A stretch of 47,129 nucleotides of DNA from Bacteroidota bacterium (GTDB lineage Bacteria > Bacteroidota > Bacteroidia > Palsa-965): positions 1 through 47,129 of the forward strand of contig VBWE01000028.1 of NCBI GenBank assembly GCA_006218065.1, written 5' to 3'. Below, piece by piece: positions 31,592-32,519 of the stretch. Positions within the stretch are counted from its first letter, which is position 1. Each line of letters opens with the position of its first letter. Below the pieces are notes generated by a model that saw only the letters and a list, made by a program, of their open reading frames with translations, was not told the origin of the DNA and ran no database searches. The translations under genes and the position numbers were made by a program.

Positions 31592-31622
31592 TTTGCACTT
31601 CCAAAAAATCCCCGTATCATTG
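31592..31622 (+). promoter_or_regulatory. Promoter of the phhA leader
   Basis: TTTG (31592-31595), a 19-nt spacer and TATCATTG (31615-31622) match the Bacteroidota -33/-7 pattern with one mismatch (consensus TAnnTTTG). The predicted transcription start is near 31627-31630, only a few nt before the ATG of the leader frame at 31632, so the leader peptide would be translated from an almost leaderless end. Confidence 0.7.
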
Positions 31623-31631
31623 TAATCTCAA

Positions 31632-31709
31632 ATGAATACGCAACACAACAATTATTACAACTACTATCCTGTTCCCCTGGAACCGGCCGGTACTGCTTTG
31701 TTGCGATAA
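31632..31709 (+). CDS. Candidate tyrosine-rich leader peptide of phhA
   Basis: A 25-codon frame, ATG to TAA. Residues 6-12 are NNYYNYY, i.e. Tyr codons TAT-TAC, one Asn codon, then TAC-TAT. No Phe codon is present. The frame starts just after a near-consensus promoter and ends 23 nt before a strong terminator placed directly ahead of phhA, the layout of an amino-acid-sensing leader peptide. The DNA GGAACCGG at 31679-31686, 12 nt after the last Tyr codon, can pair perfectly with CCGGTTCC (31738-31745), the 5' arm of the terminator. A competing 5-bp hairpin GTTCC-CCT-GGAAC (31671-31683) could sequester it when translation is unhindered. Since the downstream enzyme makes tyrosine, stalling at Tyr codons would switch it on. 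This is inferred from sequence only. Confidence 0.6.
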   Translation: MNTQHNNYYNYYPVPLEPAGTALLR

Positions 31710-31732
31710 AACGATACATACAAAGTTTCACC

Positions 31733-31768
31733 GAAGCCCGGTTCCGATGGAACCGGGCTTCTTTTTTT
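31733..31768 (+). terminator. Attenuator terminator directly upstream of phhA
   Basis: A perfect 13-bp stem, GAAGCCCGGTTCC (31733-31745) and GGAACCGGGCTTC (31749-31761), with a 3-nt loop and seven T (31762-31768). It ends 7 nt before the phhA start codon and has no gene before it other than the leader frame, so it must be read through for phhA to be expressed. Confidence 0.92.
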
Positions 31769-31775
31769 ACGCGAC

Positions 31776-32519
31776 ATGAAAACACCTGCACAGGAGTACG
31801 ACAAGTACACCAACGACGACCACGATGTGTGGCGCATCCTTTTCGAACGGCAAACCGCGAACCTGCGCGATAAAGTGTGGAGTCGCTTTTATGCATGCCT
31901 GGAGCTGACGGATATTAATTCGTACGGGGTCCCGGATTTCAGGCAACTGAACCCGCGACTGACCGGGCTGACCGGCTGGGATATCCGCGTGGTGAAAGGC
32001 ATCATCCCGGTGGATGAATTCATCCGTTTGCTGTATCGCCGCCATTTCTGCTCCAGCACCTGGCTCCGCCGCCGCGACCAGCTGGATTATCTCGAAGAGC
32101 CGGATATGTTCCATGATACGTTCGGGCATATCCCGCTGCTGGCCGACAAACAGTACGCGGATTTCGTGTACCGCTTCGCGGAGCTCGGCATGAAACACAT
32201 CCACGATGAAAAAGCGCTGGTCCTGCTCGATCGTTTTTACTGGTTCACGATCGAATTCGGGCTGATGAAGGAAAACGGGGCGCTGCGCATTTATGGCGCG
32301 GGACTGATCTCTTCGTTCGGTGAGGCGAATCACGTTTACACCGACGCGATTGAACTGCGGCCTTTCGATGTGCAGGAAATCATGCAAACGCCTTTCCGGA
32401 ACGACCAGGTGCAGAACCTGTATTTCGTGGTGCAGGATATGCGCGACTTGTGGGCAAGCATCGATGAGGCGGAGAAAATCATCGAATGCATACTGATCGG
32501 CAAAAAAGAGAAGGTTTAG
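31776..32519 (+). CDS. phhA: Phenylalanine 4-hydroxylase
   Basis: A 247-residue iron- and pterin-dependent aromatic amino acid hydroxylase converting phenylalanine to tyrosine. The catalytic domain has the iron ligands His113 and His118 in EPDMFHDTFGHIPLL and Glu160 in FYWFTIEFGL, plus the pterin/substrate region LTGLTGWDIRVVKG and the later GAGLISSFGEANHVY. Bacterial enzymes lack the regulatory ACT domain, and this one does too. It is at the short end for the family but complete. The start at 31776 follows the attenuator terminator by 7 nt. It is a single-gene unit, so the leader likely governs this enzyme alone. Confidence 0.95.
   Translation: MKTPAQEYDKYTNDDHDVWRILFERQTANLRDKVWSRFYACLELTDINSYGVPDFRQLNPRLTGLTGWDIRVVKGIIPVDEFIRLLYRRHFCSSTWLRRRDQLDYLEEPDMFHDTFGHIPLLADKQYADFVYRFAELGMKHIHDEKALVLLDRFYWFTIEFGLMKENGALRIYGAGLISSFGEANHVYTDAIELRPFDVQEIMQTPFRNDQVQNLYFVVQDMRDLWASIDEAEKIIECILIGKKEKV

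Follow-up and report, generated by a model that had tools for sequence, protein, structure and literature searches.

A Candidate Tyrosine-Sensing Transcription Attenuator Upstream of the Phenylalanine Hydroxylase Gene phhA in Bacteroidota

The phhA Gene and Its Leader Region

The window, by which we mean the whole stretch of DNA that was analyzed, comprises 47,129 nt of contig VBWE01000028.1 from a Bacteroidota bacterium of the Palsa-965 lineage (assembly GCA_006218065.1). Among its genes is phhA, whose product has bacterial phenylalanine-4-hydroxylases as its nearest solved structures and retains the HD..GH and EFGL motifs; its scores against the NCBIfam phenylalanine 4-monooxygenase models fall below the cut-offs of those models. 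The gene is preceded by a short open reading frame rich in tyrosine codons and by an intrinsic terminator (Table 1), the sole combination of leader and terminator of this kind found on the plus strand of the window.

Table 1. Features of the phhA locus, in window coordinates
Feature	Position	Strand	Description and basis
Bacteroidota-type promoter	31592-31622	+	-33 element TTTG (31592-31595), 19-nt spacer, -7 box TATCATTG (31615-31622)
Leader peptide gene	31632-31709	+	Encodes MNTQHNNYYNYYPVPLEPAGTALLR, then stop; predicted 5' UTR of about 5 nt
P1 outer helix, 5' arm	31639-31645	+	CGCAACA; within the leader start, shortly before the Tyr codons; minimum-energy fold
Tyrosine control codons Tyr8, Tyr9, Tyr11 and Tyr12	31653-31667	+	Sequence; Tyr runs conserved in relatives
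Anti-antiterminator hairpin (1:2)	31671-31683	+	5 bp, GTTCC-CCT-GGAAC; fold; real though weaker support across the family
Strand 2, antiterminator 5' strand	31679-31686	+	GGAACCGG; pairs with strand 3; covariation
P1 outer helix, 3' arm	31699-31705	+	TGTTGCG; minimum-energy fold; family swap test
Strand 3, terminator 5' arm	31733-31745	+	31738-31745 also pairs with strand 2
Strand 4 and T tract of intrinsic terminator	31749-31761 and 31762-31768	+	Sequence; covariation in relatives
phhA	31776-32519	+	Short-type phenylalanine 4-hydroxylase, 247 aa, regulated gene; Pfam PF00351, E 5e-41

A preliminary description of the locus had called the promoter near-consensus. A promoter is indeed present, but it is better described as being of the Bacteroidota type, its -7 box matching TAnnTTTG at five of six positions (one mismatch). 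With the position of the -7 box relative to the start (-12 to -5) taken from a published study (PMC9723704), transcription is predicted to begin at about 31627, some 5 nt before the leader ATG. The tyrosine leader, the terminator, the complementary arms and the 5-bp hairpin of the preliminary description were all confirmed at their coordinates. The terminator stem consists of 13 perfect pairs and is followed by seven T and then by 7 nt to the phhA ATG, and strand 2 (GGAACCGG) is the exact complement of CCGGTTCC within the 5' arm of the terminator. Overlooked in that description was P1, a 7-bp helix within the minimum-energy fold. None of 200 shuffled sequences was as stable as the fold of the leader (z -5.2). 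In computed folds of the window's element, masking a ribosome on Tyr8 or Tyr12 gave -24.5 kcal/mol with 2:3 pairing, and placing the ribosome at the stop codon gave a weaker value.

Conservation, Covariation, and Spacing among Relatives

We carried out the alignment of upstream regions of related phhA genes that had been proposed as a check on the preliminary description, and found that the tyrosine codons are kept and that both the antiterminator and the terminator show compensatory changes. After correction for orientation and duplicates, a leader ORF with a tyrosine run is present at 59 of about 128 distinct Bacteroidota short-type phhA loci, and 54 elements with both a Tyr-run leader and a terminator were analyzed (two of them, L094 and L095, being near-duplicates). 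A strict rule, which called for a terminator and for a leader ORF containing three or more Tyr within five codons, was satisfied by 49 of 131 real short-type loci, a conservative count given that 13 loci were scored in the wrong orientation, versus none of 1310 Markov shuffles of the same loci. The next-commonest amino acid run with a terminator occurred at 10 loci at most, and none of the 20 long-type (~590 aa) phhA loci satisfied the rule. The tyrosine codons are retained across the Flavobacteriales, Saprospiraceae/Lewinella, Chitinophagales, Cytophagales and the window's own order, which is small (12 genomes compared, with five other phhA genes) and in which Tyr-run leaders precede phhA at L083, L084, L086, L085 (the same locus as L061) and L087. 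Cultivable carriers of the element include Planktosalinus lacus and Marivirga sericea. Among 52 leaders the tyrosine run exists in 39 DNA versions, with TAT and TAC mixed, and it is therefore the meaning of the codons that is kept. The preliminary description had regarded the frequency of asparagine codons as a weak point. Asparagine accounts for ~9% of the residues in the leaders but is not conserved as a run in the relatives, and we rejected it as a co-regulator. A simple DNA pattern for the tyrosine codons, searched across a set of 12 genomes, gave no more matches than its reversed control and so does not show a wider tyrosine regulon.

A covariance model of the element was built from 40 phhA leaders. 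The phhA leader was its best match in 17 of 17 whole genomes, all of which are represented in the training set. When the model was applied to 100 loci lying nearly all outside that set, it gave 18 matches at E of 0.1 or less; 17 of these precede phhA in the coding orientation and one matches the opposite strand, and the 20 long-type loci yielded none. Some of the additional matches of the model revealed leaders overlooked by the simple rule, such as those of L101/G067 and of L119, which has a GTG start.

The pairing between strands 2 and 3 covaries from one species to the next. Native pairs had an energy of -11.3 kcal/mol versus -8.5 kcal/mol for swapped pairs, a difference reached by none of 5000 permutations, and 23 of the 24 divergent arms, those without the common GGTTC, paired better with their own leader. 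Examples of covarying arms are TCGGTTC with GAACTGA, CTGGTTC with GAACTAG, CCGTTTC with GAAACGG and GTTCCCG with CGGGAAC. In a plain MAFFT alignment, 18 cells of the antiterminator were changed on both sides (8.5 expected), as were 43 cells of the terminator (11.5 expected; 40 relatives). P1 behaved likewise in the swap test (native -8.5 versus swapped -5.8 kcal/mol, z -9.6, 0 of 5000) and was individually significant at p<0.05 in 25 of 50 sequences; across the family, the leader start or the Tyr codons have their partner in the stretch immediately 3' of strand 2. The 1:2 hairpin is weakly conserved, with a swap z of -4.3 and a mean shuffle z of -0.7. The preliminary description had cast this hairpin as the sole anti-antiterminator, a candidate that we set aside for P1 together with 1:2. 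We also note that a GTAGTnnTrTG-like motif recurs 3' of strand 2 in phhA leaders, where it fits the 3' arm of P1.

The distance from the last tyrosine codon to strand 2 has a median of 12 nt (interquartile range 11-14), which fits the reach of a ribosome stalled on the tyrosine codons. In 45 of 50 sequences, a ribosome positioned on the stop codon would have strand 2 within its footprint. The earlier worry that the spacing is unlike that of trp is thereby mostly removed, since in most relatives strand 2 abuts or overlaps the stop codon, but the window's group differs: with the leader stop coming 20-30 nt after strand 2 in the window and in its closest relatives, a ribosome that has reached the stop would leave that strand exposed. 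In this group it is likely that P1 and the 1:2 hairpin keep strand 2 from strand 3. With P1 included, the predicted layout is of the classical trp/phe type.

The proposal that translation of the leader begins almost at the end of the transcript is supported, with the 5' end predicted, by the conserved proximity of the -7 box to the leader ATG in relatives. Of 49 relatives in which the -7 box is clear, 35 have a 5' UTR predicted from sequence to be shorter than 10 nt, the median being 4 nt. Near-leaderless initiation would thus be a shared trait of phhA leaders, and an unusual one, because 5' UTRs of such a length make up only ~3.7% of those mapped in Bacteroides thetaiotaomicron (PMC7366714).

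In a group of loci from one family whose genomes contain tyrA (L098, L099, L104, L105, L106 and L111), the phhA leaders mix tyrosine and histidine codons, for example MNPTPRTYVHHSYHFLQ. Most of these leaders have a different yet complementary arm, GGGATAGG with CCTATTCC.

A Model for Tyrosine Sensing and Its Alternatives

We propose that phhA is controlled by a ribosome-mediated transcription attenuator that senses tyrosine, a reading to which we assign a probability of about 0.88. A cluster of codons for the product, a terminator, a covarying antiterminator, a sequestering helix and a spacing that fits the ribosome are all present, and the attenuator interpretation put forward in the preliminary description is supported, at the level of sequence, by the conservation of the tyrosine run, the covariation, the spacing and the gene content. 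Transcription would begin roughly 5 nt ahead of the leader ATG, giving a nearly leaderless transcript on which the ribosome would load. When charged tRNA-Tyr is ample, we infer that the ribosome would pass the tyrosine codons, strand 2 would be covered or folded into P1 and the 1:2 hairpin, and strands 3 and 4 would form the terminator, leaving phhA untranscribed and yielding only a leader RNA of about 140 nt. When charged tRNA-Tyr is scarce, the ribosome would stall on Tyr8 to Tyr12 and occlude the 5' arm of P1 and the strand containing the tyrosine codons. Strand 2 would then be free to pair with strand 3, no terminator would form, and phhA would be made. PhhA would in turn convert phenylalanine to tyrosine.

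Could the leader peptide instead be a nascent-chain sensor resembling TnaC, in which free tyrosine acts together with a specific peptide and the supply of Tyr-tRNA is not what is read? A threonine precedes the first tyrosine in 29 of 54 elements and the sequence NTYYYY recurs, as such a sensor might display, but no residues are conserved outside the tyrosine run, the number of tyrosines varies from 3 to 6, and other operons employ this layout with codons for Phe, His or Ile/Val instead. Moreover, arrest of the TnaC kind normally induces a catabolic gene, yet it is the catabolic hmgA-hpd-phhA clusters that are without the leader. We consider this explanation very unlikely. Riboswitch or T-box control, in which tyrosine would be read by something other than a leader peptide, has a precedent in the T-box control of tyrosine genes in other bacteria (PMC1262725). 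The window, however, contains no match to an Rfam family at gathering scores, and the leader is short, with the codons and the alternative helices as its only strong conserved features; the probability of such a device is accordingly minute.

The remaining alternatives concern the hairpin. Were the window considered by itself, an ORF with four tyrosine codons next to one hairpin could be a coincidence, the hairpin being a plain terminator or processing site and the ORF incidental. Conservation and covariation across the phylum make this extremely improbable, as does the location of the promoter directly before the leader, an arrangement in which a plain terminator would cut off phhA itself. 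Control of translation, with the leader or the hairpin determining whether the phhA start codon is accessible, is suggested by a terminator stem that ends only 14 nt before the ATG in the window; among relatives, however, the distance from terminator to ATG ranges from 5 to ~280 nt with the T tract kept, and we regard translational control as highly improbable.

Several features of the phhA element are shared with the enterobacterial pheA/pheST and trp attenuators, namely a run of end-product codons, a 2:3 antiterminator, a 3:4 intrinsic terminator, a helix involving the control-codon strand and a ribosome-sized spacing. It differs from them in its tyrosine codons, its phenylalanine hydroxylase target, its Bacteroidota promoter, its predicted 5' UTR of a few nucleotides, and in having the strand that pairs with the tyrosine region just 3' of the antiterminator strand. 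Like the leaderless trpL of Sinorhizobium meliloti (PMC7298713), the phhA leader ORF is predicted to begin at the 5' end of the transcript, but trpL has tryptophan codons, acts on trpE(G) and belongs to the Alphaproteobacteria. The T-box on tyrosine genes of Firmicutes also senses the supply of tyrosine and chooses between terminator and antiterminator, but it does so by binding uncharged tRNA directly, with no leader peptide. Closer at hand, in the same phylum, leader-peptide attenuation has been inferred from the transcriptome of Flavobacterium psychrophilum upstream of amino acid operons, including 5' elements of pheA and hisG; the passage concerned mentions neither phhA nor tyrosine (PMC9723704). 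No tyrosine leader peptide or attenuated phenylalanine hydroxylase is described in the open-access literature that we searched. Judged from its sequence, the phhA element is very probably real and, measured against that literature, represents a new tyrosine class of ribosome-mediated transcription attenuators.

Tyrosine Supply and Related Leaders

A catabolic role is often assumed for PhhA in bacteria. In the genome that contains the window, which is 99.98% complete, TyrA (prephenate/arogenate dehydrogenase, PF02153) is absent, the same search being positive in 14 of 14 control genomes, and prephenate dehydratase (PheA, PF00800) is present. PhhA is therefore the only recognized route to tyrosine in this organism. 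Phenylalanine hydroxylases with an anabolic role are on record for Dyella, Legionella and Echinicola (PMC7311316). More broadly, tyrA is missing from 38 of 45 genomes with the leader versus 16 of 43 without it (Fisher p 8e-6), a figure that ignores descent and comes from a tally that undercounts leaders, since L101/G067 and the GTG-start L119 do carry them; at least one of the 16 tyrA-less genomes tallied as lacking a recognized leader (L101/G067) accordingly has one. An independent-pairs test on the PhhA tree, in which there were too few contrasts, gave a median p of 1. Meanwhile, none of 11 short phhA loci near the tyrosine-degradation genes hmgA or hpd has the leader. At L026, L036, L063, L011, L092 and L110, phhA lies downstream of hpd and hmgA and has no tyrosine leader, an arrangement that suggests a catabolic version of the gene.

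If the attenuator reading is correct, it would add to the known attenuators the tyrosine class that has been missing, and much of the Bacteroidota would use PhhA for biosynthesis. The leader would then offer a regulatory criterion for telling anabolic phhA apart from the catabolic copies in hmgA-hpd-phhA clusters. It would also suggest an attenuator design used throughout the phylum with the codons swapped.

The design appears with other codons as well. Outside the window, pheA of the same genome (L186, G000:C18:38712-39245) has in front of it a Phe-rich leader, MQNKRNYFFFYFIGTRRGTI, followed by a strong terminator, which together form a probable phenylalanine attenuator. In other genomes, lower-scoring matches of the tyrosine model proved to be leaders that share this layout and precede other amino acid genes, the downstream genes being identified by reading their protein sequences: Ile/Val leaders before the branched-chain aminotransferase gene (ilvE), a His-run leader before hisG (L238, L246 and L243 for these leaders), and mixed Phe and Tyr leaders with a terminator before DAHP synthase/chorismate mutase (L239, L240 and L241, in G355, G412 and G287; for example MIHAQGRFYFYFYFSPLRRVGPCYAM). 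The mixed leaders look as if they sense both products. In each case the codon run matches the product, which amounts to a natural specificity control.

We lean, with some reserve, toward a joint reading of these results. One reusable, almost leaderless attenuator would serve as a general amino acid feedback device in Bacteroidota, its codon run swapped according to the target (Tyr for phhA, Phe for pheA, Phe and Tyr for DAHP synthase, His for hisG and Ile/Val for ilvE), and the tyrosine class would mark lineages that are without prephenate dehydrogenase and, like animals, obtain their tyrosine from phenylalanine.

Finally, we note that in one genome (L188, G004) a single pheA is preceded by two Phe-rich leader ORFs in tandem, at -283 and -167, with a terminator after each.
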